Source of the DNA: Schizochytrium sp. TIO01
Lineage: Eukaryota > Sar > Bigyra > Thraustochytrida > Thraustochytriidae
DNA length: 64,000 nucleotides
NCBI GenBank assembly: GCA_004764695.1
Contig: SMSO01000032.1
Span: forward strand, 4,136,983-4,200,982
Direction: 5' to 3'
Made by a program: the position numbers and the translations under genes. Shown piece by piece: positions 30,176 to 62,110 of this stretch. Each line of letters starts with the position of its first letter. Within the stretch, counting starts at the first letter, position 1. The notes under the pieces were generated by a model that was not told where the DNA came from, did no database searches, and saw only the letters and a list, made by a program, of their open reading frames with translations.

Positions 30176-30812
30176 TAAATATCTCCACAAATATGCTGGC
30201 ACTTCATTTTGAAACCTCATTTTTTTTCTTAAGAAAAAGAAATCATGTTGCGTGATCAAGGAAAGCTTCATGATTTGCATTCACATTTGCCCCAGCTGGA
30301 ATCCAAGCGGAACAAAGCGTCACTGTCCTTTTAACCATCCATTCAGGTGGCCACAGAAAAGAGAAACCCCATTTAAGAACCTCTTCTAAGAAAAACTTAT
30401 CAACTTATCATATAATTTTAATCACCCAAGGCTGGAGCTCCAATTCTCCTACAACTTTAATGTAGGCACACGCGTCACAGGCTCAAAGGAGCCCAACTGC
30501 TCAAGCCCTCAAAGCACCATCATGATATATGAAACATTTTCTTTAAATTAGATTCTTTACTATACATTAGGAAAAGGTACATATTCCTATAACTCTAAAA
30601 AATATCCGGGTTGTAATTTGATGAAACAGATCTCAAGTCGCAGCTGCTGCAATTCTCTATTTCCGGTGCCGCTTTCGCGGGCGCCATCGTCGAAGTCGAG
30701 GAGAGGCCGCTCTTCCTCTCCTCACCTTCGTTCGCTCGTATACTCCTAGTCCTTTGCTTTTTGTTTCTCTGGTGTATTGTTCAAGGAGCATCCATCCGCC
30801 GATTCCGCAGCC
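30176..30812. other. Intergenic region upstream of WDR24
   Basis: AT-rich 3' flank of the glycosyltransferase gene, then a CT-rich leader (30700-30775) immediately before the WDR24 start. No gene is supported. Confidence 0.4.
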
Positions 30813-33800
30813 ATGCTTGAGGGCTCCAAGGTCTTCGCGCGCGGCGCCGCTGCTGCTGGCGGGGCCCGCGTGGAGGTGACTGCTGACATCGGTGTCGTGG
30901 CAAACAGCGTTGATATCAGCGCTGATCAGCAGGTTGTGGCGGTGGGTGCCAACAACAGCCTGACGCTGCTACGGCTGTGGAATCGATACCGTTCTTTGGA
31001 CGTCGAAGAGTCGCATTTTTTGAAAGACACCAAGCATGGCGCAAGCAAATCGATAGGTCTCCTGAAACCAATTCTCAAGGTCAAATTCAATCCTACTTTA
31101 CATCATGCACATTATTTAGCTACAACATCCTCAAGCGGAGCTGTTGGACTGTGGAATCTGCATCACATCAAAGAGGATCGAGGCCAGTGGCACCCGGAAA
31201 CGGTCCTGCGAGAGCACAATCAGGCTGTGAGCTGTCTGGCCTGGCATTACGACGATCCCTCGCTGCTACTTACGGGCTCAAATGACACAAAGATAAAATA
31301 CTGGGACATGCGAGTTCGCCAGGCATCAAACCTCACAATTACACCGAAGAGTGATACTGTGCGAGATATCCAGTTTCGTAAAGAGGATGGGAGCACTCAG
31401 TTCGCGGCTGCTTTTGCGAATGGTACAGTGCAGGTTTGGGATGTACGCCACTTTAAGCGGCCGCAGTCCATATACCATGCCCATGATGAGGCTTACACAG
31501 TGGACTGGAATGCAGAGCAGACGAACCTGCTTGCCAGTGGCGGACGTGATGGCTGGATTAAGGTTTGGGATATCAACGCTAAACCTTTGGAAGATATGCC
31601 ACAACCAAGTGCACCTCTTTTAGGCTCAGAATTAGGAAATACCAGAGCTGCTAGTTCACGTGTTGTTACCACGGCAACTCACGTTCGCCGGGCTAGTGGC
31701 GACTCCTTGGGGCATTCTTCTATTAGCTCTGGAGTTGAGAATCCTTCTGGGCGTAAAATCAAGCGACGCACCTTACACCGCCCTGTGTATTTGATTGAGG
31801 TGGCCGAGAAACCTGTAATGCGCGTGAAATGGCGTCCTGAGCATCCTTATCTGATTGCTGCGAGCTCACTCAAGAGCCCGGAGATTACATTATGGAACGT
31901 TATGGACCCGCACGTCCCAGTTGCTTCGGTAAATGCATGCGACCGTGAAGATGTTGCAAATGGATTTCTTTGGCTCGATACATTTCTTGATCCCACAGAA
32001 ACAGTATACTCTAGCTTATATGACACCTCGTGGTGGATAGGCGATGAAGGCGAGGATGATCTTGAAGAAGTAGCTGAAAATAATGAAGCTGTGGAAAACC
32101 TTCGCGACCTCTCCAGACCAACAAAAGAAGCTGAAGAGTTAGCAGAAGTCCCTGCATCCGAACGCGGGCATTTCAGGCCTATTGACCTCTCGTACCGGTC
32201 GGACTCAAAGGAGAGCGGGAAGATGCCTTTGCATTCTGAATCAAGACTTCATCCGACGGCTGGACTCATTCCTGTGTCACCCCCGCTCCAGCACCAAGTG
32301 AGTGATCTTTCGTATGCCAACGCCAAGTACAATGCTTCCTTTGTTGGTCACTCTTTAGCACGCCCACCAAGCCCCGCTGCCTCAGTTGCGGATTCTGTCA
32401 TCTCACATCGCACAAACAATGGTCACATGAAGAATGGGGACTCTGCTGACGGAAATGTGCTTACCTTGCGTGACTCGCAAAAAATAAAGTTCCGCAAGTA
32501 CAGACATAAGCATCGCCAGGGCGAAGATTCTCAGCATAGCTGGGGCTGCTTGTTAAGCTGTACACCAGGAGGCAAAGTAACAATTCGCAATCTGCAGCGC
32601 GCTGACAAGCCTTTGAATAGGTTTCGTGCGACGGCAATCAGCCTATCTGTTGGATCTCGTCTTGCAGCAATGCATGAAGATATCCCTTTCCAACGTCTGG
32701 GCGGAAGTTTCCTAGTCACTCAAGTATTGGGACCATCCGAAATTGAACCCCCGTCACACAACAAGATTCATATTCTTGGAGCTGAAGTAATGCAGTCTAA
32801 AAGGCATCGCAAACGTGCTATGGATTTTACAGATTCTCTATTTGGGTTCGATGCGGAGCAATTCAAGACTCTCGCACAAGGCTACATGACACCGGGCACC
32901 CTAAGTCAAACTCCTGAAGGATCACGCTTGCTATCGGAACATCGTCTACGTCACCGTATTATCCTTCAAACAAACGCTGCTAACTCAAGCGCCCATATGC
33001 ACTCTGGTGATTATCCATATCAAGGAGGGCTTGGCGTCGATGGCCAAATGCCTCATGTGGCTAGTAAAACTAATACAGGACCTTCCAAGGAGATGGATAG
33101 TGCCCAGGACAAACACAAGACATCAGTGGAGCCGTATCGTAATGGTGGAGTTGATAGGCAAGAAGTTGACACTCCAGATATCACAAAAAACAAAAAAAGA
33201 ATGAGGGAGCAAGAAGCTCTGCTGGACCAGCAAGCAGCCTTGACTGCATGCTGTGAGCATAACGCGAGTATTGCAGATGCAGCTGGAGCTCTTGTTCAGG
33301 CTCAAATCTGGCGTCTGCTTATGCTTATTTTTTCTCCGCAAAGTGTACACCTTGACCTGCAGACTGTTTCTCTGAAAGTTAAGCATCCTGTAGTGAGTGC
33401 TATGCAGCGTTCCCGCGTGCGAACAACAAGCTATGCTAGCCAAAGCACGGCGGAGAGCGCTGCCCCCCATCAACCAAGAGTCCCTCTAATTGAACCGGTT
33501 TCTTCCGATATTGTTATTACTACGTATAATAATGCAGCCAATAATAGTGATCTGCTTGAGTCCAGTGGAGCGCTTCCACTCAGCAACAATCCTATGCTTC
33601 GCACAGAACCTAATATGAACAAGGTAGCCTCCCACGATTCGGTGAATAAACCTAAAGAGGTTCTTGGGGTGCCAGGGGTAACGGGCAGCCCACCGCATAT
33701 GCCCCAGAAACATCTTCGAACGCATAGTGCTAGCTCTGCGTCTAAATTATCCAACACCTCGTTAGAGTATCCTCCTGCAGGACCAGTTCAAGCACAGAGA

Positions 33801-35438
33801 CAAGTCCCACGTCCTCGGGCATCCTCTAGCAGTTCGCATTTGGGGAGTACTGTTCCTACAACAGATTCACAAAGTTTCGAAGAAACAGACCTTGATAGCT
33901 TGTATGTAACTCAAGATATGGATGCTCTGGTCGGTCCTGGAGAGATGAAAGAGGGCGATGCATCACATCGTTCAAAGAGGATTCCCGATCGCGTGGCCCT
34001 TAAGAAAATTCCTGTGGATGAGGAATCTCCGGAGAGTGAAATCTTTGCTTCTGAACCTGAAGGAGCACAGGAAATCACAGTGAAAGACCCGTTTTCTATT
34101 GCACCAGCACGAACACAATTGTGGAGACCTGAGAGTATTAATCTTTTGTGTAGGCTTAGTCTCGCACTTCCCATGAATGAATCGAACTTTATTCTTTCCT
34201 CGAAAGTGCTGGAAGATGATGTGCAGGAGCTACATGATGCTCTTGATTTGGCAAAACCGCCTGTGCCTGTGAGCCCTATGCCTAAGGGTCACCAGAAGCT
34301 CCGACGTTTACATCGGATGCAGAGGCGACAGAAATTTGTGCAATTTTATCGCCAGATATATGCAACTCAACTGCAAGTACAAGCAGAAGCTCCAGTGCAG
34401 GGCCCTGTTTCTGCTGTTCCGGTCTTTGCACCTAATGCGACAAGACCTTTACTTCAAATGCCCACAGCAGAGGAGCTTGCCTTGTCGCGCGGTACGTCGC
34501 TCAGCTCGGCGCTCACATATGATGCTGATGATAATGACCAATATGCACCTGGAAGCCACACAGGCATAGTGCACGGCGATGGAAGACCTGGATACGATGA
34601 CGGCACAGGAAACCGACATGGGGCTATAGAAAGTATGCATCAAGATCAAGAAAGTGAATCGGAGGGATTCGTCAGCTCTCAAGGTGGGACTCAACATCTT
34701 GAGACAAAGCTGGGCGTTGAATTGGATGGAATACATGACGTTAATGGGCTCGCAACTCTAGGAATGGGCTCTGAAGAGGGGTCTACTATCGCTTCGCAAG
34801 GACCTGTACCCTTGAGCCTTCTTGGTCTGTCTAAAAGTGGATTAGAAAAGGGGGAAGTTGTTCTCTCACCATTTCATATCGTTACGCAAAATACGAGCAA
34901 GTTTAAATCTGAGCTGGTACACGATATACTTCAATACCACGCTGATATTGGAGATGTGCAGACTTGCTCTATGGTAATTTTAGTTTTGGGCGATCTGCTT
35001 TCTCCAGAGGTAAGGCCTTTGAAGAGACGTATGTGGCTTTGCTCGTATGTAGACCTTTTGCAGCAACTTCGTGTGTATTCTGTTGCAGCGCGTGTCATCT
35101 CAGCTTGCCATGATCCGGAAGTGGAGAGATGCTATCAGATGTCCAGCATGGTTGCTGAAGGTTGTGGTTACTGCTATCCTACAAACACGAAGAACCTAAT
35201 CATGGCAGATGATGATTTCACAGGCTCTTGTAATACATGTAAGAACACAGTAAGTCGTTGTGCGATCTGCGAGGAAGTCGTCAAGGGTGTCTATGTCTGG
35301 TGCCAAGGCTGTGGACATAGTGGTCATTTGGATCATATGACTGAATGGTTCAAGACGGAGACTACGTGCCCGACTGGCTGTGGCCATGAGTGTACATTGA
35401 GTTGCCAGGGAGGACCCTGGTCTGCTACAGAAGAGTAG
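30813..35438 (+). CDS. WDR24: GATOR2/SEACAT complex subunit WDR24 (Sea2)
   Basis: Single exon; the ATG at 30813 (MLEGSK) is the first in-frame ATG, giving 1541 residues. That is about twice the length of human WDR24. Residues about 20-400 hold WD40 repeats, for example ending IKYWDMR, VQVWDVR and IKVWDI. The middle is Ser/Asp-rich and poorly structured, with predicted disordered inserts. A helical segment (34900-35170) precedes a C-terminal zinc/RING module. The module reads CNTC, CAICEEVVKGVYVWCQGC, GHSGHLDHMTEWF and CPTGCGHEC, a close match to the WDR24 C-terminus. No RWD domain is apparent, which argues against WDR59. GATOR2 opposes GATOR1 and so activates TORC1 at lysosomes/vacuoles when amino acids are present. 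The extra length lies in the linkers. Confidence 0.92.
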   Translation: MLEGSKVFARGAAAAGGARVEVTADIGVVANSVDISADQQVVAVGANNSLTLLRLWNRYRSLDVEESHFLKDTKHGASKSIGLLKPILKVKFNPTLHHAHYLATTSSSGAVGLWNLHHIKEDRGQWHPETVLREHNQAVSCLAWHYDDPSLLLTGSNDTKIKYWDMRVRQASNLTITPKSDTVRDIQFRKEDGSTQFAAAFANGTVQVWDVRHFKRPQSIYHAHDEAYTVDWNAEQTNLLASGGRDGWIKVWDINAKPLEDMPQPSAPLLGSELGNTRAASSRVVTTATHVRRASGDSLGHSSISSGVENPSGRKIKRRTLHRPVYLIEVAEKPVMRVKWRPEHPYLIAASSLKSPEITLWNVMDPHVPVASVNACDREDVANGFLWLDTFLDPTETVYSSLYDTSWWIGDEGEDDLEEVAENNEAVENLRDLSRPTKEAEELAEVPASERGHFRPIDLSYRSDSKESGKMPLHSESRLHPTAGLIPVSPPLQHQVSDLSYANAKYNASFVGHSLARPPSPAASVADSVISHRTNNGHMKNGDSADGNVLTLRDSQKIKFRKYRHKHRQGEDSQHSWGCLLSCTPGGKVTIRNLQRADKPLNRFRATAISLSVGSRLAAMHEDIPFQRLGGSFLVTQVLGPSEIEPPSHNKIHILGAEVMQSKRHRKRAMDFTDSLFGFDAEQFKTLAQGYMTPGTLSQTPEGSRLLSEHRLRHRIILQTNAANSSAHMHSGDYPYQGGLGVDGQMPHVASKTNTGPSKEMDSAQDKHKTSVEPYRNGGVDRQEVDTPDITKNKKRMREQEALLDQQAALTACCEHNASIADAAGALVQAQIWRLLMLIFSPQSVHLDLQTVSLKVKHPVVSAMQRSRVRTTSYASQSTAESAAPHQPRVPLIEPVSSDIVITTYNNAANNSDLLESSGALPLSNNPMLRTEPNMNKVASHDSVNKPKEVLGVPGVTGSPPHMPQKHLRTHSASSASKLSNTSLEYPPAGPVQAQRQVPRPRASSSSSHLGSTVPTTDSQSFEETDLDSLYVTQDMDALVGPGEMKEGDASHRSKRIPDRVALKKIPVDEESPESEIFASEPEGAQEITVKDPFSIAPARTQLWRPESINLLCRLSLALPMNESNFILSSKVLEDDVQELHDALDLAKPPVPVSPMPKGHQKLRRLHRMQRRQKFVQFYRQIYATQLQVQAEAPVQGPVSAVPVFAPNATRPLLQMPTAEELALSRGTSLSSALTYDADDNDQYAPGSHTGIVHGDGRPGYDDGTGNRHGAIESMHQDQESESEGFVSSQGGTQHLETKLGVELDGIHDVNGLATLGMGSEEGSTIASQGPVPLSLLGLSKSGLEKGEVVLSPFHIVTQNTSKFKSELVHDILQYHADIGDVQTCSMVILVLGDLLSPEVRPLKRRMWLCSYVDLLQQLRVYSVAARVISACHDPEVERCYQMSSMVAEGCGYCYPTNTKNLIMADDDFTGSCNTCKNTVSRCAICEEVVKGVYVWCQGCGHSGHLDHMTEWFKTETTCPTGCGHECTLSCQGGPWSATEE

Positions 35439-36384: not shown

Positions 36385-36813
36385 TTAGGCGTTCTTGAGG
36401 TAGTCAAGGAGAAAGTTGAGGGCGGGGGACTCCTCACCGAAGTCGGTGATGACGGCGCAAGAGCAGCCGACGACGCGGGTGGCAGCACCCTCGGCGTCGA
36501 TCTTGCAGAGACCGCACCACTGGCCGAGCTCCTTGCGGTCGGTGACCTTGATGAGGGGCACGTCGTGCTCAGCGCAGAGAGCGACGATGAGCTTCTTGTA
36601 GGCGTCCTCCTCGCAGTTCTCAGCGAGGCAGCAGAGGCGGGCGGCCTTGCTGTCGAGGGCCTTGGCGCACTCGTGGAGTCCGCGGCGGAGACCATCGTTG
36701 TACATGGACTTCTTGAGCACCGCCTGGAGAGCGGTCATCGGGGTAAGGTCCTCAACGGGGACCTCCTCCACGGGGGCGGCCTGCTCGACCTCCATAACCT
36801 CCTCGTCGGCCAT
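36385..36813 (-). CDS. RPS12: 40S ribosomal protein eS12
   Basis: Single exon of 142 residues from ATG 36813. It has an acidic N-terminus ([14 protein letters not shown]), then the L7Ae/Gadd45-fold body typical of eS12: [42 protein letters not shown] and [11 protein letters not shown]. It ends LLDYLKNA. Length and motifs match the family, which sits on the 40S beak. Codon use is strikingly biased (GAG, CTC, AAG), as expected for a highly expressed ribosomal gene and unlike its neighbours. Its GC-rich coding strand produces long antisense frames that are shadows. Confidence 0.97.
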
Positions 36814-38592
36814 CTTTCCTAAACTTAGTTCAACACTAAAAACTCAGCAATCTCGCTCTGCGATCCTCCACCAAGGCGGGCACGGCCAAGGTCTCCTCGG
36901 TCGCAAGAATGAATCAGTAATGCTTTATCTATTCCCTATAACTAACTATCTATCACCCATTCTTTCTCTTATCTCATTCATTCTTTCTCTTCTTCCTTTC
37001 ACTGTTATAATATCGCACTAACAATTGTTACTCATTCATTCATTCATTCATTCATTCATTCATTCATTCATTCATTCACTCATTATTCATTCACTATTCA
37101 TTCATTCACTCATTCACTCATTCATTCATTATTCACTCATTCATTAATTCATTCATTCATTCTCTCATTCATTCATTAGTTATTCTCCTCCTTTCTTCTT
37201 TACGCGCGAACCGCTAGCAGTCAGCTACACCTCTATAAGGCTCGGAGCCCATTGGCCACTCATTCAGGGAGGAGTTCCCCGCGTTACCGCACACGCCGCC
37301 TTGGCCCGTCGTTCTTTTGTGGCCATATTCGCAGCGAGTCGTTCTGATTCTGGACGTTCTATTTCAGCAGGCGGGGATGTCCAGTGTACACCCCAGTGCT
37401 AGCAAGGCCAATCGAAGTGATACTGCAGAACAAAGAGACTACTTAGACCTATAATTAGGTCTCTATACCGCGCTAAGGGATAAGGTTTTAGGTAGATAGG
37501 GGCATATATTAGATATTCAAAGAGGGGGCACTTGATAAGAGTTCGTAATGTGGAAGATGTAGAACGTGGGGTTTCAAAACTTGGGCGCAAGAGAGCGCCG
37601 TAAAATATCTCAGGCAGGGGACAGAAGGAGGGTGTACATTCGCTGCTATAAGTAGCGATACTTATTTTATATGATTAGACCTAGAGGAAACCTTAGGGAC
37701 TCAGAAGGGCTGTCTATCATCTCGAAGAATCTGGAGATGATAATAAGTCTGAGATTTGTGTAGAAGGTAACCTAGCTAGGTACTTCTTACCTATTTACTT
37801 CGTAAGGTTATCATCGTAGTTAGTGGGTAGAGCTTTTATTTGTCGAAGTTGTGCTGATGCTGTCAGGAGAAGTTTATTTAATTAAAATTAAAGTTATGAT
37901 GGTGTTCTCGCCATTTTGAAGCTGCTCGAATACCTGATAAAACCTCGAATCAAAACAACCCCAATGGGGATATTAGGTTTTTAAGTTTAGGTTTGCTACA
38001 AAGAATTGGATTTACTACGATGCTTACTTAAACCCAGCACGTCTGTGGTGTAGATAGATGGGTATACTCCCTGCTAATAGATCTAGCGTTCCTTGTTCGA
38101 AGGGAAGATATGTGTTTTGACCCTTCGGGATGGAAGGCAGGGTACCTAGAACATCCCGTCATGACAGGGGAGCACCAAATATTGCGAAGTGCTTCAGAGG
38201 GGTGGTGCGTCAACTGGTAAGGAGATATTAATCACATCGTTTTAAAACTATTCATGGGAACACCTTGGTCGCATCAAATTCATGAGTATTCATTTGCAAG
38301 GAGTTGCATTTCTTTTTTGCCAAATCGCCGCTCAAAGGTAGCAAGTTGTAATCTTTTAGTCTGGAAGCCAAAACAAGTAGTCATGACCGATTTTATCTGT
38401 AATTTTAGTGGAGACCATCAACAAATGTGAAACAATATGATTTCGAGATTACATCAGGGACATGTTTTCCTCTCATGCGGTTCAATTATCAAACAAACCA
38501 ATATGTTCTTTCGTTTGACGATGTTCTACAAAAGATCCGGTGTTACAAATTGATATATAGGCCTGTACCATGCTGACAGGATTCTGTAATTT
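36814..38592. other. 1.8 kb gene-free interval
   Basis: It contains the eS12 promoter and leader at the left and a long ATTC microsatellite (37030-37185). A TAGGTA/CTAGCTAGG palindromic cluster lies at about 37760-37795. Short ORFs here have no protein-like features. Confidence 0.45.
37030..37185. repeat. ATTC tetranucleotide microsatellite
   Basis: About 150 bp of ATTC units, with interruptions (CACT, ATTATTC) increasing towards the right. It lies upstream of the eS12 gene. Confidence 0.95.
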
Positions 38593-41500
38593 TTACCGGC
38601 GACGTGGTGGGATACTGCGACGAAGAAAGCGAGCACTTCGACGAAGAGATTCATAGCGAATAATAAACATTTCCACGCGACGTAACAGTCGTCGAGCTGC
38701 TGCCTCAGTCTTGTCGTTGACCTCAGCTGACCGTAAAGACCTCAATTCTGTTTTGTACAAATTCACCATGTTCGTGTTAGTTATAACAATTGTTAACGAT
38801 AGTATCCCCATTGCCCTATTCTCAATAACTTACCTCTATGAAGGTGGCCCTGTTGACTACGAAGATCATGAAGTTCCGCGTCAGAAAGCTCTTGTGCAGG
38901 TGTTGAAAGCACTGAGTCACAGTCTCTCATTTTACTTTGAATGCTACGAATTGTCATAGCTTGCTGACGAATTCGGTCGCGGAGTGCTTGTTCTGCTTCC
39001 TCAGACCGGCCAATTCGAGCTGCCACTGGAGTACTACTCTGTACCGTCTCGGTCTCCATACGCGCCTGTTGAAGAGCGGAGGTTCTCTCGCGGTGTGTTG
39101 CCTTCATGGATTCAAGCTCATTTGTAATTTTGTCCATGGCTTCTTTCAACTGGTCTTCTGATACTCCACGCAATAAATCTGTATCAGAAGAATTGCTCAG
39201 ATAACCCAACTTCTGTAGCCACGTTGCTGCCACGCGAGTACGCATGGCAGTCTCCTCCTTGGTTTCCTGAATGATTTCAGTGCGATAATCAACTTCGTCA
39301 GCCCGCTGACCAAGATCTTTGTGCTCCCTGCGAAGAAGTTGTAAATCTTCTCGAATGCGTTCTAGCTTTTTAACATTTTCGAGGTGTCGAAGGTAGGCGT
39401 GATCTTGGTCCATCAAATGCTGACTATTGTTAGAGACTGCCTCTGCTGGCTGATCTTCTTGTTCATCAGTGCTGTCGTTGTGGGCATGTTCAACGTTATC
39501 CATACTCACGTTGTTCGAATAGTTGTCATCGTCATCGACGTCGACTTCTCGAATGGCTTCGTCCTCAGCAGGGACAAGTGGAGAAACCTTTGGGGGTTTG
39601 GGGACACTTTTCGGTGTTGCAGAAGTCTTCGCATCCAAAATCGGAGATTTAGCCAATATATCATCGCTTGCAAAGGACATCGGGCTGTGGACGTCATTAT
39701 GAGCAATTGGAGTCAGAACTGATAACGACATTGATCCATGCCTAAAGCGAGGGGTAGGAGCATGGGGCATTCTCCCATCGAAAGAGTCTGAGAAAGGTGC
39801 CATATCCGAGAGTAAACTCGCATGCACATCTGAGAACGAAACTCCATCGTTCTGCATGTTCGGAGAGCTGTAAAATGCATTTTCCTTTGGTGCTTTAGAA
39901 GCGGGAACAAATGTTCCTCTTTGTTTAGTTGTATCAGAGTGTGGCTGAGGGCTTTCTCCTGATTTCTCCTTTTTTGAATCGGGGTTCTTCGAACTCTGAG
40001 AACCTCCACTTCGTTCAGGAGGTAGGGTTGAATGTGCTTGAGGAACTTCTTGCTTCTGCGGGGAAGGATCTTGCAGTGTTTGGCGTTGAAGATTAACTTC
40101 ATTGTGAGGTACCGTGACATTAATATTGGCTTGGACTCCTTTTTTCAATTGATTGAGAAAGTCCGCTTTACTCTCCTGGTCAAGTGGGGTCCTAGCGAGA
40201 CCCTTTCCTGTTGGGATAAGGTTGCGGGAACGCTTTTCAACCGATGCGGATATACTCGGTAAAACGGAAGAATCATTACACAAAGCTTGTGGTGCTTGAT
40301 TAGTTGTGATGATATCGAATGCGGCTTGTGTTTCGTGCAAAGGAGTCCTAGACAGGCCATTTCCAGTCGGGATCATGTTTTTGGGGAGGGCTGGAGCATT
40401 TTCCTCGCTTTTTTCCAAGTTTGCCGTTACAAGAAGATTGTTTGTGTTCGTGGCCTCCGTAACCGGTGTGCGACTCAGGCCATTACCTGAGGGGATAACG
40501 TTTCGGGCATGCCGCACTTCATTCGCCAAAACTTGGTTCACCTCATTTTGATTATGACGCATTGATCCCATTGTAGTAGTAACAGCAGCAGCGGCAGCAG
40601 TGCCCTCCTCTAAAATTGGCGTCCGCGCAAGGCCATTCCCTGTCGGGATAACATTTTTCCTTGGCAGCTGTTGAGCGCTAGTATCAAAAGCACCAGCTGA
40701 TTCGAGTTCATTGTTGGTGTGAAAGAATGCTTTCGACTTAGGAGACTCATTAGCTGGAGTTCTGGCAAGACCGTTTCCACTAGGAATCATGTTTTTCTTT
40801 GGTTCGAGTATGCCTGATGCTTCCGTAATAGCTTCGCCAGAGTCGATGGTCTCCGCAAGCTTTTGTACCCTTCCTGCAATATGCATATCCGTCAATGGGG
40901 TCCGGGTTAAGCCGCGTCCAGTTGGAACGACATTTTTCTTTCTGGTGATCTCTGCAGTGATTTCCTTTTGAGAAGCTTTTGTTGAATTGAGCTTTCCCTC
41001 TTGGTCATTTAGAGGTGTTCGAGCTAGACCCTTTCCAGTTGGTATGATATTTTTGGTAGCTTTAGGTGCTCTGTCGATGTTCTGATTACCCGAATCCATA
41101 GTTACAGGTATAGAGGGGATTGCAGGAGCGGCAGCCTCTATCCGTGTGGGAATGTTCAGCGGTGTCCTTGCTAATCCATTACCACTAGGAATTAAGTTCT
41201 TTTGAGAAGGTGCAACACTTATCACTTCTTGCGATTGGGAAGGCACGTGAGAACTTGGCAAATCAGTCAACTCTTTTGAAATTGGCGTTCGCGCAAGCCC
41301 ACCTCCACTTGGGATGGCGTTGCGATCTGCACGGATAGTTTTAATTTGTGCAATAGGATCGTGGTTTACTTTCGTCGAGTTTGTATTATCATGCATTGGA
41401 ATTTGTGCCAGAGGAATTCCGGTTGGGATCGTATTCTTGGTTTGTTTCTCGATTGTCTTCTCTTCTGCTAGAGTGCGGAGGGGCGCCTCGATTGGAGTGC

Positions 41501-42434
41501 GTGCTAGACCAGCTCCAGAGGGAATCACATTACGCAAACTAACAGGTTCTTTTGTTGCAACAGAAGTTTTAACAGTATTTTGCTGATTGCTAGATCCATT
41601 AGTCTGCATTTGAATCTGGGTAATTGGAGTCCGTGCTAAGCCACCTCCTGAAGGAATAGTATTCTTAGATGCCAAAGGTTGACGCTGTTGCTGTGGTTGT
41701 TTATTCTGATTTAGAAACAGTTCTTGAGCCGGCAATGTTACAGGTGTGCGAGCAAGACCATTTCCAGCAGGAATTAGGTTCTTGCGAGAAGTAATTGGAT
41801 TATCTGAAGATATCACTTGATTCTCCTTCTGAGACTGTGCTTCCGGGATCGAAAACCCTCGCTCGACTTGACCAACAGGTGTGCGAGCCAAGCCTCGTCC
41901 TGCGGGAATTATGTTACGCAAAGGCTCGCTGCTTTGTGTAGCTTGTCCTTGGTCACCAGTAGTTGCGAGAGGCCCATCGGTGCTAGTTACCCCAACAGGA
42001 GTCTGAGCAGGCACACGACCTACAGGATGGATGTTGCTTTGATTTCCACCTGGATGAATGAATACCTGTGAAGTGATTCCGGTTGTAGCTAAATTACGAG
42101 TATTGCTCTGATGAGCTGCCGTTTGCGCAGGTCTTTGGCGTTTTAGATTTGTCTGGGCAAAGGGATGACTTTCTTGAGTCCTTTTATGAGTCTGTTGCTG
42201 GTTTTGCAAGCTCTGCTGTTGCTGATTCACTCCAATATTTTGCAGTGGCTTGCGACCAGGGAGAACGATTTCAGAAAAATCTTCCCAGTTCGTCGAAGAT
42301 TTACTCGGTTTCAAAGCTTGGACTTTGCGGTCATGTTGCTGACGTTCGTGTCTATTTTCCCTATCGACGTCCCGAGGATTTTCCACAGTAGGAGGCGTAC
42401 GCGCAAGTTGGCGTCCCACCGGAATTGCGTTCAT
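38593..42434 (-). CDS. LARTP-motif array protein with C-terminal coiled coil, two exons, function unknown
   Basis: Exon 1 is 42434-38834 and exon 2 is 38747-38593; an 86-nt intron (GTAAGT donor, AAAACAG acceptor, phase 1) joins them into 1251 residues. Without splicing the frame ends in intron sequence at 38793. The first 750 residues contain 16 copies of a short motif, consensus (R/K)NxIP(S/T)GxGLARTP, every 35-65 residues; the first copy is at residues 2-13. Linkers are Gln/Asn/Ser-rich and diverged, so only the motif is conserved. Copies 2 and 7 are degenerate. Each intact motif ends in Arg-Thr-Pro, a potential proline-directed kinase site. From about residue 1010 there is a coiled coil (LRHLENVKKLERIREDLQLL...), and a very basic end (RRSARFLRRSIPPRRR). 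I recognise no family. The layout suggests a multivalent scaffold, cytoskeletal or mitotic; that is inference. Confidence 0.85.
40190..42434 (-). repeat. 16-copy short-linear-motif array (IPxGxGLARTP) in coding sequence
   Basis: The 14-residue motif recurs 16 times in this 2.2-kb coding span. DNA identity among copies is modest because synonymous codons differ. Selection on the protein, rather than recent tandem duplication, therefore best explains the conservation. Confidence 0.9.
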
Positions 42435-42978
42435 TGCAAGGCGTCAGACCTGTTTCCGAATTTATACAGGGCCAGCCTTTTGTCAAAGAGCCAGAGGCGG
42501 CAAAATATGGACCTTGCAGTCCTTCAGAGAGATGCTGGACCCAATAGAGCCCTTGTTGTATCGTATCGCCAATGCGAAGTTTGATGGAATTCTATGCTCG
42601 CTTCTGGCTTTGGTCGTTTTTTGCGCAACGCAATTTACTTTCTAATTGCGCAACCCATTTTTCTTCCAATTGCGCAACCCATTTCCAAGACATGTTATGG
42701 GAACGCGGGTAACCATTTGAATCGCTGGACATGATCGTCGCGGGCACTATGATGGTGCAGTTCTCTGACTGTATTCGTGCCTCATTGGTGTTTGCGTAGT
42801 GCACATCGAGCCCGACCACAGTTCCAGATCGTGGACCGCTGTCTTTACTAGGGGAGTATTCTTTGTGCGCCGCGTTTATCTGTGTAGAGAGTGTGGATTG
42901 AGCCCCGGCCAGCCACCCAAGGTTTTCACCAAAGTATCGCTTCGTAGAAAACAGAAGCTTCAGAAAAGCCCAAGAATC
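42435..42978. promoter_or_regulatory. Divergent promoter with three TTGCGCAA palindromes
   Basis: This 544-bp interval separates the divergent LARTP-array and Trm112 genes. The palindrome TTGCGCAA occurs at 42621-42628, 42646-42653 and 42670-42677, spaced 25 and 24 bp. The last two copies sit in a near-perfect tandem repeat of AATTGCGCAACCCATTT. The regulatory role is inferred from position, palindromy and spacing. Confidence 0.5.
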
Positions 42979-43347
42979 ATGAAGCTCCTCACGCACAACC
43001 TTCTTAAGTGCAACGTCAAGGGCGTCAAGACAGGCTACCCTCTTAAGATTGAGGTTACATCGAAGGAGGTCCGCGAGACCGAGATGAACCCAACCTTTCT
43101 TCAGAACATTGTGAACAAGCTTGACTGGGCTGCTTTCCGCGCTGCCGCTGCCCAGCTTGGTGAAGATGGGTTTCCGGAGGCCGTGACCCCTGAGCTCCTC
43201 GAGCAGGACGAGTTCTTGGAGAAGTTCCACCGTGCTTTGTTGGAGACCGTTGTTGTGGAGGGCGCCCTCATTTGCCCCGAGTCTGGTCGCAGGTTCCCCA
43301 TCACGAACGCGATCCCGAACATGATTCTCAATGAGGATGAGGTCTAA
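42979..43347 (+). CDS. TRM112: Trm112 family methyltransferase activator (TRMT112)
   Basis: The frame is open upstream, but the ATG at 42979 gives the standard N-terminus MKLLTHNLLKCNVKG and 122 residues, the family's usual length. The zinc-ribbon-like fold contributes ICPESGRRFPITNAIPNMIL near the C-terminus, closely matching eukaryotic Trm112. This small protein is the obligate partner of several SAM-dependent methyltransferases, including Trm9/ALKBH8, Trm11, Mtq2/HEMK2 (eRF1 methylation) and Bud23 (18S rRNA). It thereby tunes tRNA, rRNA and release-factor modification. It is single-exon and divergent from the LARTP-array gene. Confidence 0.95.
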   Translation: MKLLTHNLLKCNVKGVKTGYPLKIEVTSKEVRETEMNPTFLQNIVNKLDWAAFRAAAAQLGEDGFPEAVTPELLEQDEFLEKFHRALLETVVVEGALICPESGRRFPITNAIPNMILNEDEV

Positions 43348-44718: not shown

Positions 44719-47517
44719 CTATGATGGGAAACTTTCTCTTTGTAGGAGTAAATAGAAAATTCTGCAGGGGGAGAAAAGGTTAGCGATACTTGAATTGACG
44801 CCTGCAAGATAGTCCTGGCCAAATCGCTCTTGGCAAAAACGGTGCCATGGCTGTTCTCGCTCTGCTCGAAAGTGATGAGGGATATCCATGAGAAGATGAC
44901 CTGGTGCACGGCGAGCGAGCTCCATCATGGTGCCAGCAGGCCATTGTCGCATATCGACATTTGTCATATCGACGGCTTCAATAAAGTAGCTCATGACTAT
45001 TTCCACAATGTATTCGGGAAGATCATCGAGATCGACTTTGTAAGTTACAAATGCCCGTAGAGAGAGGGTAAAAAGAGAAGGAAAAACCCCTTTGCGATCT
45101 GCACGAGCAGATGCTGCGCCCATGTCGTGTATGTCTTCCACTTCTGTGCCTAGATCGTCCTCATCATTATCATCTTGTGTGGAATGCGTTTCGAGCATAT
45201 TGCCATCTTGGCTCTGGCGTCCAGATTCCCTGTCCCAGTCGCGGGCAAGTTGGGTAGCTCTTTCAGCATCAAATTCTAATAGGTGATTCACCTCTACAAG
45301 ATCAGTCAATTCTTCGACACTCATAGACTTGAAGTCTTGCAAGAGGTCATCAATTGTTGTCGTTGAGGTCTCAACCAAGGTGGTGGATCGCCGAGACCGA
45401 AGCATTTGATCCACTAGCTCATTTGCGTGGTCTTTGTATGTTTTAGTACTCATTGCTGATGCAAGAGTGGTGACAGCCATAGCCCCTTGATGTTGTGTTG
45501 AGGCTGAAGCTGCGGTGGCCCCTTCTGAGCCACCTATTGAAGCATCATCTGAAGCGTTTGCATACTGCAAATCATGGTCCTTTTGGGGATCGTGCCCGTG
45601 AGCTATAGCATTTGGATCTCGCATATTTACAGAAGCGAAATGCGAAGGGGATACGCTACGACTATTAGTTATGTTTCCGCTGCCAGAAGGTGACCGCTGA
45701 CTTGAGTATTGCTGCTCTCCAATGCTGTTGAAACCTGGTACAAACGGCAGTGATGATGACGATAGAGAGGATTGCTGCATGGGAAACTGTATAGGATACT
45801 GCACAGGCCCTCCCTGAGTATTGGAATTGTGGAGCTGGTACTGGTTCATGTGCGATTGAAAACCATCAGTAGCAGTACTGGTCTCACCACAAGAAAGCTG
45901 GGCTACTCTAGGATGAAGACGTACGTCGACGCCTCCTAGGTCGTTTGGGCGAGTCTCTTGAGGCGATTGTTGCTGTTGCTGTTGTTGTTGTTGCTGCTGG
46001 TGAGAGTGATAATGTTGTTTGGTATCCTGGTCAATATGCAAGGATGACATTGATGTTGACAAAATTGATCGAGTCGAGGCCTCCATGCCCTTGAGCTCTA
46101 TATCGCTTTCGTCATCGTTGAGTTCGTCTGAGTGGTATGGCTGTTGCTCTTGCTGATAATGATGGTGTCGGTGATCAAAGGTGGATGCATCACTGCTGCT
46201 TTGCCCTCTATAGTACTCACTTTGCTGGGGGTTGTTCTGGCCAGCATGTGCACTCGGAGTGCTACTGTATGAGTCAAGTGCATACAGGCGATGTTGATCT
46301 GTTGGGTACCGCAACGAGGAGGCCGATGTTGGAGACCTCGATCTCCTCCTATTAATCCCTGCAGCTCTTTGTTCATCTGTTGTGCGGGTGAGTGATGTCA
46401 AAGCAGTTGTCGGTACTCCAGTCGCGCGCGCAGGCGACATCACTGGCATAGGCGACGTCGCTCTCGCATTGGTCGCCTTCGATGCTGGTGATGCCTCTGG
46501 TGTTGTTGGTGATGATAGAGATGCTGATGCCGTCGGCACAGTGGGTGTCATAACCGGCGGTAGCTCTGGCGCTGACCTGGAGCGTGCCTTATCCTCTGTA
46601 CCCTCTCTGGCGCGCTGGCCGTGCCAATTCCTTCCATCAATGTTGTCATTATCCTCGTTGTAAACACGAGCAGGGGCAACTGGTGGCGGTCTCCGTCGAT
46701 CTGTCTCGTTTCCTTCAATTGCATACATGTTCGCGCCATGATAGAATCCTTGATTAATCGTGCTCCCATTCAGTGCAACTAACATATAGTAAAAGAACTG
46801 ACATGGTGGGAACACCGAGGCCATGCTCGCACATGGTAATTCTTCCCACCCTTTGAACCTCACTCCGCAGAAGTCCAGCCACGGCAGTTCTTGTGCCGCT
46901 CTGTGTTCGCGTTTAATTTGTAGCAGGATCTGATAGCTCGCTTTACACGCCATCGCCCTCCCAAAAAAGGGAGGAAATCTTGCCAAGTCTACCGCCAGGA
47001 ACACCTCCACGTCTCCTAGGTCCTCCGCACCATTCCACTTCGGCGTATCCATATTCATATCCGCATTAGTTTCAGATCTCACAGCTGCGCTGTCCCCTTG
47101 CCTGCTCTCGTCACCGCTCTCGGCAGTTCTGGAAGCGCCATAGGGGTTTCGCTCCAAGTGTCTACACATAAATCTTTCCACTGCAGATTGCCCGCGTGCT
47201 GCTGCGACCGCACCTTGGATTGTAATCTCCATGCCACGCTCCGAGTTGAGTTCCTCTGCGCTTGCCTCCTGTTGGCGGTATGCTACGAAAGCCCGGAGGC
47301 GTTCCAGGAAGGCTTCTCGCCTCTTCTGAGCCTGGTTCGCTGCTGCCGTTCTCGACGTGGCCTGGTTTTCTTCGCGCTGTTCATTGTTTCCACTGTTGTT
47401 TCCGTCGTTGCCGACGCCACCACGGCCGTCATGCTCGCCATGCCCGTCATGCTCGCCTCCTCGGCCGCTGTCGTGGCCCGGGACCCAGGGTCCGCCGCCG
47501 CTGGCGGGCCGGTCCAT
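44719..47517 (-). CDS. 932-residue polyQ protein with matching N- and C-terminal domains, function unknown
   Basis: Single exon from ATG 47517. The start is Gly/Asp/His/Asn-rich. Two related domains flank a disordered middle of about 550 residues that includes a polyQ run (about 45975-46005). Domain A (about residues 68-247) has LRAFVAYR, PWLDFCGVRF and FPPCQFFYYML. Domain B (about 815-930) has LRAFVTYK, PWHRFCQERF and FSPCRIFYLLL. The shared core PWxxFCxxRF...FxPCxxFYxLL points to internal duplication. Domain B also contains LPEYIVEIVMSYF, weakly reminiscent of F-box or elongin-A-type leaders; domain A lacks it. The sequence upstream of the start (47630-47800) is a TTTC microsatellite. I recognise no named family. 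Confidence 0.8.
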   Translation of the reverse strand: MDRPASGGGPWVPGHDSGRGGEHDGHGEHDGRGGVGNDGNNSGNNEQREENQATSRTAAANQAQKRREAFLERLRAFVAYRQQEASAEELNSERGMEITIQGAVAAARGQSAVERFMCRHLERNPYGASRTAESGDESRQGDSAAVRSETNADMNMDTPKWNGAEDLGDVEVFLAVDLARFPPFFGRAMACKASYQILLQIKREHRAAQELPWLDFCGVRFKGWEELPCASMASVFPPCQFFYYMLVALNGSTINQGFYHGANMYAIEGNETDRRRPPPVAPARVYNEDNDNIDGRNWHGQRAREGTEDKARSRSAPELPPVMTPTVPTASASLSSPTTPEASPASKATNARATSPMPVMSPARATGVPTTALTSLTRTTDEQRAAGINRRRSRSPTSASSLRYPTDQHRLYALDSYSSTPSAHAGQNNPQQSEYYRGQSSSDASTFDHRHHHYQQEQQPYHSDELNDDESDIELKGMEASTRSILSTSMSSLHIDQDTKQHYHSHQQQQQQQQQQQSPQETRPNDLGGVDVRLHPRVAQLSCGETSTATDGFQSHMNQYQLHNSNTQGGPVQYPIQFPMQQSSLSSSSLPFVPGFNSIGEQQYSSQRSPSGSGNITNSRSVSPSHFASVNMRDPNAIAHGHDPQKDHDLQYANASDDASIGGSEGATAASASTQHQGAMAVTTLASAMSTKTYKDHANELVDQMLRSRRSTTLVETSTTTIDDLLQDFKSMSVEELTDLVEVNHLLEFDAERATQLARDWDRESGRQSQDGNMLETHSTQDDNDEDDLGTEVEDIHDMGAASARADRKGVFPSLFTLSLRAFVTYKVDLDDLPEYIVEIVMSYFIEAVDMTNVDMRQWPAGTMMELARRAPGHLLMDIPHHFRAEREQPWHRFCQERFGQDYLAGVNSSIANLFSPCRIFYLLLQRESFPS

Positions 47518-59295: not shown

Positions 59296-61985
59296 GCTTG
59301 CAAGTTCAATAGGTTGTGTTGATCCATTTCCCTTCTTGGTTAGGCAGTCAGCAGTTAGTAGGCAACAGGATGTGCAGGCTGACCAAGGTCATGACCAAGT
59401 TGAAACCATACTTTTATTGCTCATAGACCATCCTGGCATCAGCCTTACAGATATCATACAAGGCCGTGCTGGGACGCGCAGCCAGCGACGAGTGCTGCAA
59501 AAGTTTATTAGTGCACTGCGAGAAACCCAAGGGCCTGAGATGGCCACAATCCCAAGAGAAGAGGTCAATGTTGAAACTGCGCGGGGTCTAGTTCGAGTTC
59601 TGGCTGATCGAGGCGAGCGGAGTGATCTGTTACGAACACTACAAATCTTGCACAATGCTTTGGAAGCTGAATTCAAAGCTGCTGAGACCGCAGATGGTCA
59701 TGATGACCTGAGGAGAGCTGTTCGTGAACGGGATATTCTTGTTCATTTGCAGAGAACCGTAAAGGAAGAGGAACACGATGCCGAAGTGGTTTCTGAAGCA
59801 CTATGGATCTTTCATTTCGCCTTTCATCGTGAAGCTACCTGTGAGTATACTAAGGCTGCAATGAAGACCTATGGTCTAGGCCTTGTACTAATTAGTATTA
59901 TGCGAGCGAATCAGCAGTGCAGGCTGCAGCATGTGCTTGTGTCAAAACCCTCGCGTACAGAAACACAGAAAGCGCGATTATTCTAGCAAAAGATTTGAAT
60001 GTGGGTGCAGAGATTGTGGCCGCCATGAGCACACATCGAACAAATGCAGACGTGCAAGAAAACGCATGTGGGGCATTGTGGAATCTTGCTGTCAATGATC
60101 GCAACAAAGAGATCCTGGGACAAGATTTGAATGTGGGCGCAGAGATTGTTGCGGCCATGAGCGCACATCGAACGAATGCAGGCGTGCAACAACAAGCATG
60201 TTGGGCATTGCGGATTCTTGCTTCAAATGATCGTAACAAAGAGATCCTGGGCCAAGAGTTGAATGTGGGCGCAGAGATTGTGGCGGCTATGAGCACACAT
60301 CGAACGAATGCAGGCGTGCAAGAACAAGCATGTTGGGCATTGCGGAATCTTGCTTCAAATGATCGTAACAACGAGATTCTGGGCCAAGATTTGAATGTGG
60401 GCGCAGAGATTGTGGCGGCCATGAGCGCACATCGAACGAATGCAGGCGTGCAAGAACAATCATGTTGGGCATTGCGGAATCTTGCTTCAAATGATCGTAA
60501 CAACGAGATCCTGGGCCAAGATTTGAATGTGGGCGCAGAGATTGTGGCGGCCATGAGCGCACATCGAACGAATGCAGGCGTGCAAGAACAAGCATGTGCG
60601 GCATTGCGGATTCTTGCTTTAAATGATCGCAACTGTGAGGTCCTGGTCCAGGATTTGAATGTGGGCGCAGTGGTTGTGGCCACCATGCGCGCGCATCTAA
60701 CGAGTGCCGACGTGCAAAAACAAGCATGTAGTGCAATAAGTAAGCTGACTTCAAATGATCGCAACTGTGAAATCTTGGGACAAGATTTGCATGTTGGCCC
60801 AGATATTGTGGCCGCCATGTGTGCGCATCTAACGAATGCAGACGTGCAAAAAGAAGCATGTGGGGTATTGTGCAATCTTGCTGTCAATAACAATCGCAAC
60901 AAAGAGATCCTGGGCCAAGATTTGAATGTGGGCGCAGTGGTTGTGGCCACCATGCGCGCGCATCTAACGAGTGCCGACGTGCAAAAACAAGCATGTAGTG
61001 CAATAAGTAAGCTGACTTCAAATGATCGCAACTGTGAAATCTTGGGACAAGATTTGCATGTTGGCCCAGATATTGTGGCCGCCATGTGTGCGCATCTAAC
61101 GAATGCAGACGTGCAAAAAGAAGCATGTGGGGTATTGTGCAATCTTACTGTCAATAACAATCGCAACAAAGAGATCCTGGGCCAAGATTTGAATGTGGGC
61201 GCAGAGATTGTGGCCGCCATGCGCGCACATCGAACTAATGCAGACGTGCAAGAGCAAGCATGTGCGGCATTGTGGAGTCTTTCTCTCGATAACAATCGCA
61301 ACAAAGAGATCCTGGGCCAAGATTTGAATGTGGGCGCAGAGATTGCAGCGGCCATGTCCGCGCATCTAACGAATGCAGACGTGCAGAAAAGAGCATGTGT
61401 TGCATTGTGGAGTCTTGCTCGCAACAATCGCAACTGTGAGATCTTGGGACAAGTTTTGAATGTGGGTGCAGATATTGCGGCGGCTATGCGCACGCATCTA
61501 ACGAATGCAGATGTGCAAAATCAAGCATGTAGGGCATTAAGTAAGCTTGCTTCAATTGATCGCAACTGTGAGATCTTGGGACAAGATTTGCATGTGGGCC
61601 CAGAGATTGTGGCGGCCATGTGCGCGCATTTAACGAATGCAGATGTGCAAGAAAATGCATGTAGGGCATTATGTAAGCTTGCTTCAAATGATCGCAACTG
61701 TGAGATCTTGGGACAAGATTTGCTGATTTGCATGTGGGTGCAGAGATTGTGGCGGCCATGCGCGAGCATCTAACGAATGCAGACGTGCAAAAGGAAGCAT
61801 GTGGGGCATTGTGGGGTCTTGCTCGCAACAATCGCAACAAAAAGCTTCTGGGACAAGATTTGAATGTGGGCGCAGAGATTATGGTGGCCATGCGCGCGCA
61901 TCTAACGAATGCAAGCGTGCAAATACAAGGATCTGGGGCATTGTGGAGTCTTGCTTCAAATGATCGCAACTGTGAGATTATGTGA
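59296..61985 (+). pseudogene. Armadillo-like repeat protein gene with frame breaks (degraded or mis-assembled)
   Basis: An N-terminal helical part (frame from about 59296 to 59986) contains VETILLLLIDHPGISLTDII and ALEAEFKAAETADGHDDLRR. It has no ATG until GPEMATIP, so a 5' exon may be missing; several AG acceptors lie at 59340-59361. It passes into 44-residue armadillo-like repeats in another frame at 59896-59917; one extra base at AA 59909-59910 would join them. The repeats (NVGAEIVAAM...ACxALxxLAxNDRNxEILGQ) run to 61773. An 8-bp duplication (CTGATTTG, 61723-61730) then shifts the frame into 61728-61985. Armadillo repeats form curved helical protein-binding scaffolds. It may be functional through a different frame call, or a pseudogene. 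The ORF ends at TGA 61983-61985, and a further in-frame repeat lies beyond the stop. Confidence 0.65.
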
Positions 61986-62110
61986 TAAGATTTGAATGTG
62001 GGCGCGGAGATTGTGGCTGCCGTGCGTGCGCATCTAACGAGTGCATATGTGTAAGAAACTGCATGTGATACATTGCGTAATCTAGCCTTCAGTTGTGACG
62101 TTTTTCAGTT
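59992..62110 (+). repeat. Tandem array of sixteen 132/135-bp armadillo-encoding repeats
   Basis: Units begin at 59992, 60124, 60256, 60388, 60520, 60652, 60784, 60919, 61051, 61186, 61321, 61453, 61585, 61717, 61857 and 61989. Periods are 132 bp, or 135 bp where an extra Asn codon occurs. The 61717 unit is 140 bp through an 8-bp insertion. DNA identity is high throughout, so copies are recent or homogenised. The last unit has in-frame TGA, TAA and a later TAA, and lies outside any possible coding region. Confidence 0.95.
60652..61185 (+). repeat. Perfectly tandem 267-bp two-repeat block duplication
   Basis: Block 60652-60918 recurs as 60919-61185. By eye they differ only at 60880 (g) versus 61147 (a), which changes Ala to Thr. 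Each block encodes one NVGAVVVATM unit and one HVGPDIVAAM unit. The duplication must be very recent or freshly gene-converted. Confidence 0.92.

Follow-up and report, generated by a model that had tools for sequence, protein, structure and literature searches.

A gene on the minus strand of the window (64,000 nucleotides of Schizochytrium sp. TIO01 DNA) may encode a multivalent docking scaffold, with the copies of a short repeated motif as candidate docking sites; the probability of this reading is roughly 0.55. The many conserved copies of a short motif in a region predicted from its composition to be disordered are what is expected of such a scaffold. The gene occupies 42434-38593, and its spliced coding sequence corresponds to a protein of 1251 amino acids. 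Reconstruction of the coding sequence reproduced the extent (38593..42434) proposed in a first-pass annotation of this DNA. One intron was required because the unspliced frame reached a stop at 38793, and an 86-nt GT..AG intron was placed at 38748..38833 (minus strand) from the reading frame and the splice-site dinucleotides. Exon 1 (38834..42434, minus strand), a 1213-codon open frame, contains the start codon, the motif array, an S/T-P-rich block (39480..40169, minus strand; residues 756-985) and most of the helical region, in which a heptad-bearing part (38835..39395, minus strand; residues 1014-1200) is a probable coiled coil according to heptad statistics. Exon 2 (38747-38593, minus strand) encodes the basic tail; the last 51 residues have 16 K/R and 6 D/E, and the protein ends in PPRRR-stop.

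The motif was 15 residues long, with the consensus [KR]-N-hyd-[IV]-P-[STA]-G-x-G-L-[AST]-R-T-P-hyd, and it was present in 16 copies. Thirteen of these are clean, two are degenerate and the remaining one lies at the start codon. The count of 16 was the same as in the first-pass annotation, but its strict pattern, (R/K)NxIP(S/T)GxGLARTP, was matched by 8 copies only, whereas the looser consensus covered 13. All copies are on the minus strand. Copy 1 (MNAIPVGRQLARTPP, 42390..42434) is located at the extreme N-terminus, and the degenerate copies are copy 2 (SNIHPVGRVPAQTPV, 41994..42038) and copy 7 (KNTIPTGIPLAQIPM, 41394..41438), the latter without Thr-Pro. The clean copies are copies 3 (41874..41918), 4 (41739..41783), 5 (41622..41666), 6 (41490..41534), 8 (41280..41324), 9 (41157..41201), 10 (41010..41054), 11 (40893..40937), 12 (40752..40796), 13 (40614..40658), 14 (40461..40505), 15 (40338..40382) and 16 (40182..40226). 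The Asn, the first Pro and the first Gly were found in 16/16 copies. Eight positions (N, P, G, G, L, R, T and P) had zero entropy among the 13 clean copies, with Ile varying once, and the columns flanking these copies gave 2.1-3.4 bits.

Between copies, the motif showed pS of 0.76 (lowest pair 0.46) and pN of 0.22, with a pN/pS of 0.29. The first-pass annotation had suggested measuring a rate contrast between motif and linkers: the motif ratio was low, but the ratios of the 15 residues before and after it (0.99 and 0.90) show only that the flanks behave as unrelated sequence, as they could not be aligned as homologues. Because conservation drops abruptly at the borders of the motif and synonymous change between copies has reached saturation, we infer that the motif has been kept by selection, a conclusion drawn between copies inside one gene. 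Furthermore, Tandem Repeats Finder (TRF) reported no tandem repeat scoring >=30 within 38500-42500. The results were in agreement with the earlier claims that the copies use different synonymous codons and form a selected linear motif instead of a young tandem repeat.

The spacing was also regular. The last 14 copies had a near-constant pitch of 43 +/- 6 residues, and the spacing CV was 0.13 compared with a random-placement mean of 0.62 (0/20000 placements as even). This is far too even for motifs arising independently. It is therefore probable that the array arose from tandem units of about 43 residues whose linkers later diverged, or else that the spacing itself was selected. These data fit an old array of tandem units of which conserved stickers have remained, separated by free spacers. 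The tandem origin indicated by the even spacing would also suit an old repeat without any docking function, in which gene conversion or constraint at the DNA level keeps the motif, but this explanation is highly unlikely. The linkers had no DNA in common, and no residual similarity was detected between them in protein or DNA when tested against shuffles. Moreover, copies further apart in the array were not clearly more different in their DNA (Mantel r 0.13; 730/5000 permutations as high). Gene conversion could in principle keep the motifs alike, but the saturated synonymous differences, together with the low pN/pS, speak against recent conversion. For its part, the old-repeat explanation can point to a young 132-nt tandem array, located in an ARM-repeat gene of the same 64-kb window. 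Charge was distributed unevenly: the 16 motifs contained 34 K/R and 0 D/E (31 and 0 in the 210 residues of the 14 evenly spaced ones), and the 13 linkers (369 residues) were slightly acidic, with 33 K/R and 45 D/E. Judged by composition, the array region would be disordered.

The C-terminal part was examined in four segments chosen by eye, and an excess of heptad a/d residues was observed in three of them (P 0.047, 0.010 and 0.005). The fourth and last segment showed no heptad excess (P 0.62). Heptad statistics support the coiled-coil end described by the first-pass annotation in three segments but not in the last, and the protein probably oligomerises through these predicted coiled coils. The annotation had also stated that every motif ends in Thr-Pro, which was true of 15/16 copies and failed in copy 7. 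The linkers had 1 S/T-P site against 4.3 expected (256/5000 shuffles as low), and the Thr-Pro of 15 motifs together with these S/T-P-poor linkers is compatible with a putative kinase site. The block at residues 756-985 had 9 S/T-P sites compared with 4.5 expected (99/5000 shuffles as many). For the whole protein outside the motifs, S/T-P was not enriched (12 against 10.8 expected), and neither were full CDK sites, S/T-P-x-K/R (1 against 1.24). In addition, two weak KEN tripeptides were found outside the motifs (41820..41828, residues 203-205, and 39879..39887, residues 850-852, both minus strand; shuffle P 0.022). The D-box-like pattern R..L..[LIVM] had three matches outside the motifs, at residues 61, 1028 and 1219 (shuffle P 0.04, weak), and the first of these was RKPLQNI (42234..42254, minus strand; residues 61-67). 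The statistics for KEN, D-box and S/T-P are all weak and do not include a correction for the 13 patterns tried.

Within the reach of the search, the genome had no second copy of the gene: the 1213-codon open frame matched only itself, plus one E 1.67 match in the C-terminal region. A DNA pattern for G-L-A-R-T-P, which also accepts Phe in place of Leu and Ser in place of Arg but does not catch the G-L-S/T and Q-L copies, gave 31 matches in the genome (10 within this gene, 21 outside it), compared with 13 for the reversed control. All 21 outside matches were inspected, and none was preceded by I-P-x-G. A six-frame motif scan, covering the window and the retrieved loci except this gene and its own locus (L040), returned three matches: N-x-V-P-x-G at window position 1229 on the minus strand, and two at C24:491509. 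The latter, with P-D-G upstream, was rejected as a further carrier of the motif and taken as chance because it lies in a stretch of 38 codons on the strand opposite a 913-codon open frame. Pfam searches with the whole protein, 10 of the 16 repeats and the C-terminus gave nothing over the cut-off (best EPO_TPO, E 0.036), and PDB searches with the whole protein and with the motif profile gave no meaningful match (best E 1.1 in each). None of the pattern matches was confirmed among viral contigs, either for the whole open frame (12 matches) or for the motif alignment (7 matches, from a 16-residue query that hardly reaches the required E 1e-3), or among prokaryote genomes (23 matches). The motif strings, and NxIP together with EB1, were not found in the open-access literature searched.

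In the proposed mechanism, each motif would act as a docking site, fitting in extended form into a groove of a single folded domain of the partner, with contact residues at both ends of the motif (K/R-N-hyd-I-P and G-L-x-R-T-P-hyd). Self-association of the C-terminal coiled coil would then gather many partner molecules and hold them by avidity. Phosphorylation of Thr-Pro by a proline-directed kinase could switch the docking, and a weak hint of turnover in the cell cycle comes from the pair of KEN tripeptides and the D-box-like site. If the copies do act as docking sites, they would represent a previously unknown short linear motif whose consensus can be read unusually clearly from one gene, and the scaffold would be tractable to study in this lineage, for which a PfaA-type PUFA synthase is consistent with a labyrinthulomycete. 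In that case the 13 natural variants in one protein would reveal the important positions, so that a pull-down with one peptide could be enough to identify the partner.

Among the alternatives, a microtubule plus-end or lattice binder, with each motif binding EB1 or tubulin directly and the constant pitch arising from one motif per polymer subunit, is unlikely. Basic, evenly spaced motifs would suit a polymer with an acidic surface, and Kar9 offers a precedent, since an excerpt of PMC9859758 describes three or more SxIP/LxxPTPh motifs within a disordered part of it. A conventional EB1, with both its CH and its EB1 domain scoring over the cut-off, is encoded in the genome. EB1 is known from nearly all eukaryotes, so its presence here says little. 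In the EB1 variant of this explanation, NxIP would stand for SxIP and L-A-R-T-P-hyd for LxxPTP-hyd. The Ile/Leu-Pro of SxIP was indeed present (IP in 14/16 copies, VP in 1, HP in 1), but the Ser/Thr position was Asn in 16/16 copies and never S/T, and the Pro before Thr-Pro was replaced by Arg (14/16) or Gln (2). Moreover, I-P was followed by S/T/A/V and then Gly, not by the EB1-favouring hydrophobics given in an excerpt of PMC12695022, and 30-residue peptides of 10/16 repeats had no match to the tau repeat or another Pfam family. It is quite unlikely that the protein is a kinetochore scaffold working like KNL1/Spc105, with a WD40 protein or some other reader brought in by the Thr-Pro motifs once phosphorylated and the coiled coil serving as the anchor of the array. 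The likeness noted by the first-pass annotation is one of layout only, with an N-terminal array and a probable coiled coil after it, and the weak KEN and D-box signals would suit this reading. In addition, recurrent repeat evolution of KNL1 is described in an excerpt of PMC5579357, which cites Tromer et al. 2015, and a non-MELT Bub3-binding motif is predicted for Arabidopsis KNL1 in an excerpt of PMC12595034. Against it, the whole protein had 0 matches to [MILV][ED][MILV][ST] or M[ED].[ST] and 0 to RV.F, KV.F or [SG]ILK, with 0 RVxF outside the motifs, and the gene had no match to Spc7 or Knl1_RWD_C, although sequence profiles could miss a very diverged RWD. A 454-residue open frame on another contig (C32) suits KNL1 or ZWINT better: it scored 28.1 bits for Knl1_RWD_C against a cut-off of 27.8, and 25.1, below it, in a second search. 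Against PDB sequences this frame gave no KNL1 match (best E 0.045, a MarR regulator), and PF08317 elsewhere in the genome had weak matches only (best E 0.07, none over the cut-off). A split KNL1-like platform is most improbable; it would be built on a lineage-specific docking motif not described before, whose 16 copies, gated at Thr-Pro and repeated at a constant pitch of 43 residues, recruit one partner in register, with the RWD anchor in a separate gene; if true, the array would do here what the MELT array does in other lineages.

A chromatin scaffold is very unlikely, whether as a WDR5 WIN-like array with an A-R-T core or as nucleosome-binding arginine anchors like the 13 MDC1 PST repeats. 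The consensus A-R-[ACST]-[EKR] in an excerpt of PMC11261779 accommodates G-L-A-R-T, but its +2 position (E/K/R) was Pro here in 16/16 copies, position -1 was Ser/Thr in 3/13 clean copies, and WIN leaves the invariant N-x-I-P-x-G half unexplained. The PST precedent is a positively charged region with 13 human repeats, several of which are needed for nucleosome binding, largely via the acidic patch (excerpt of PMC6858307); however, Pfam showed no known chromatin domain in the present protein. An array of WH2-like actin-binding motifs is extremely improbable. The WH2 core has an I-x-x-G-x-x-L-x-R-T-like spacing, and the I, G, L, R and T of the motif can be aligned to it. However, no conserved amphipathic helix was found upstream (columns -16 to -2 unconserved), and Ile directly precedes Pro. 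WH2 is given as a helix plus LKKV in an excerpt of PMC8102491, which names at least A, S, Q, D and E for the residue before Ile, but this residue was hydrophobic in 11/13 clean copies. The Pfam WH2 profile had 12 matches elsewhere in the genome and none in this gene, nor in ten single-repeat peptides.

The candidate docking scaffold was compared with the closest known systems, and its motif fits none of the motif classes tested. WH2 arrays share the core spacing but differ in their conserved helix, in the Pro after Ile here and in the profile match. MDC1 additionally carries FHA and BRCT domains and is not known to end in a coiled coil. Its PST repeats are likewise many and positively charged (excerpt of PMC6858307), but their motif is unlike the one here. 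The WDR5 WIN motif shares the A-R-T core, whereas the present motif has Pro at +2, tolerates Ser/Thr at -1 and adds an invariant N-terminal half. Like the EB1-binding +TIPs (Kar9, APC and MACF), the protein has multiple motifs built around a hydrophobic-Pro core and set in predicted disordered sequence; it differs in Asn for Ser/Thr, in Arg/Gln for Pro, in the long conserved G-x-G-L-x-R and in its 16 copies. Compared with the MELT array of KNL1/Spc105, the motif is unrelated, has Thr-Pro instead and comes without a PP1 motif or an RWD match, but in both a series of short motifs, each with a Thr as known or putative phospho-acceptor, is separated by linkers that have diverged and is followed by a coiled coil, which is a probable one here.

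Sixteen copies of a 15-residue motif, [KR]-N-hyd-[IV]-P-[STA]-G-x-G-L-[AST]-R-T-P-hyd (hyd, hydrophobic), were found in the product of the minus-strand gene at 42434-38593, the number given in the first-pass annotation. They comprised 13 clean copies, one at the start codon and two degenerate ones; the strict form of the motif proposed earlier was matched by 8 of the 16, and the other copies deviated from it. N, P, G, G, L, R, T and P were invariant in all 13 clean copies. Position -1 was K in eight and R in five, 11 copies had a hydrophobic residue following N (the other two, T and A), and the I position was V once. Moreover, the residue following I-P was S/T in 11 and A in two, that preceding R was A (10), S (2) or T (1), and the position behind Thr-Pro was V, I or L, with A once. 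Conservation among the clean copies dropped to background at both motif edges. The pN/pS was 0.29 in the motif and 0.99 and 0.90 in the 15 residues upstream and downstream, respectively; since the flank values are those expected of unrelated sequence, they do not measure the rate of the linkers, and what the test reveals is motif constraint. The pS was saturated (0.73-0.77) across the motif and both flanks. The motif array is real and selected.

The frame from the ATG at 42434, directly preceded by in-frame stops, was open over 1213 codons by ORF reading. A predicted 86-nt intron (38833-38748, GT..AG) would keep the frame, and the stop of the second exon fell at 38593, the boundary already claimed for the gene, giving a spliced product of 1251 residues. 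A Pfam search with the protein and its C-terminus returned no family at its cut-off. Heptad hydrophobic excess was observed in three of four segments chosen by eye within residues 1014-1235 (P 0.047, 0.010 and 0.005; 0.62 for the fourth), and the tail was basic. The protein is probably a coiled-coil scaffold. The neighbours look like ordinary eukaryotic genes, including what we take, by eye, to be genes for a TRM112-like protein (ORF 42799-43347) and an eS12-like ribosomal protein (36385-36813). In addition, the window held a 1553-residue ORF (30777-35438, plus) that combines WD40 repeats with a RING-like zinc domain (zf-RING_16) at the C-terminus, reminiscent of WDR24/Sea2, a 932-residue ORF with a low-complexity middle and no Pfam match at E 0.001 (44719-47517, minus), and a 37-copy TCAT microsatellite (37032-37177).

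The pitch of 14 copies (residues 173-737, one degenerate copy included) was 43.4 residues, with an SD of 5.7 and a CV of 0.13. Copies 1 and 2, separated by 132 residues, were left out, copy 2 lying 40 residues ahead of copy 3. Random placement gave a mean CV of 0.62, and none of 20000 placements was equally even. The linkers showed no similarity beyond shuffles, either as protein (mean score 16.8 vs 16.4; 45 of 300 shuffles as high) or as DNA (41 of 200), and DNA distance had no clear relation to array position (Mantel, 730 of 5000 permutations as high). TRF detected no tandem repeat in the gene. On the even pitch, the dissimilar linkers and the TRF result, we read the array as having expanded long ago in tandem from a unit of about 43 residues, with just the motif and pitch preserved. 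The earlier view that this is not a young tandem repeat was upheld, with an old tandem origin added to it. By contrast, a young tandem array in the window (59990-62067; 15.6 copies of a 132-nt period, with 82% matches) overlies an ARM-repeat ORF (59917-61773, plus; Pfam Arm, ARM_LRRK2); its 44-residue period happens to be near the motif pitch.

The array consists of basic stickers with slightly acidic spacers. All 16 motifs contained 34 K/R and no D/E; the 14 evenly spaced ones, 210 residues in total, had 31 and 0, compared with 33 and 45 over the 369 residues of the 13 linkers between them. S/T-P was observed once in the linkers (4.3 expected; a count this low in 256 of 5000 shuffles) and nine times in residues 756-985 (4.5 expected; a count this high in 99 of 5000), and was at expectation over the entire non-motif sequence (12 vs 10.8). 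Full S/T-P-x-K/R CDK sites were not enriched outside the motifs (1 vs 1.24 expected). KEN (n = 2, P 0.022) and D-box-like sites (n = 3, two within the C-terminal region, P 0.04) outside the motifs were weak signals, because 13 patterns were tried. A partner, phosphorylation and any mitotic role of the protein are conjectural.

No paralogue was found in the 64-Mb genome (37 contigs), and all 21 GLARTP-type DNA sites outside the gene lacked the remainder of the motif. The nearest, P-D-G-R-G-L-A-R-T-P on contig C24, was taken for a chance match; it sits within 38 codons that run antisense to a long ORF. Viral contigs and prokaryote genomes gave no confirmed match, which says little for a eukaryotic gene and, for viral contigs searched with the short motif as query, is nearly uninformative. 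The genome also encoded, above the NCBIfam cut-off, a PfaA-type polyunsaturated fatty acid synthase (contig C4, 608161-617209) with several tandem matches to one central part of the profile, as is typical of labyrinthulomycetes; this lends plausibility to the stramenopile origin assumed earlier.

Among known motif classes, SxIP failed at the Ser position and LxxPTPh at the Pro position in 16 of 16 copies, and WIN and WH2 likewise failed; a conventional EB1 was present in the genome. The likeness to KNL1, suggested from layout, was not borne out beyond it: MELT, RVxF, SILK, Spc7 and RWD matches were all absent from the array protein. A Knl1_RWD_C match occurred on contig C32 (28.1 bits in the genome search, cut-off 27.8; 25.1 bits in hmmscan, below cut-off), in an ORF at about 1343540-1344904 (L038:7041-8405, an excerpted locus) encoding 454 residues from the first ATG, with coiled-coil-like sequence and neither a MELT-like motif nor a copy of the array motif. 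This ORF may be the KNL1 or ZWINT of the organism, because plant ZWINT has two RWD domains according to PMC12595034. A second excerpted locus, L037, scored only weakly against Knl1_RWD_C; its long open frame includes a polyglutamine tract that spans several dozen residues. The array motif, without a match in the searches made, is unnamed, and the protein that carries it would be of a kind already known, the multivalent motif scaffold.
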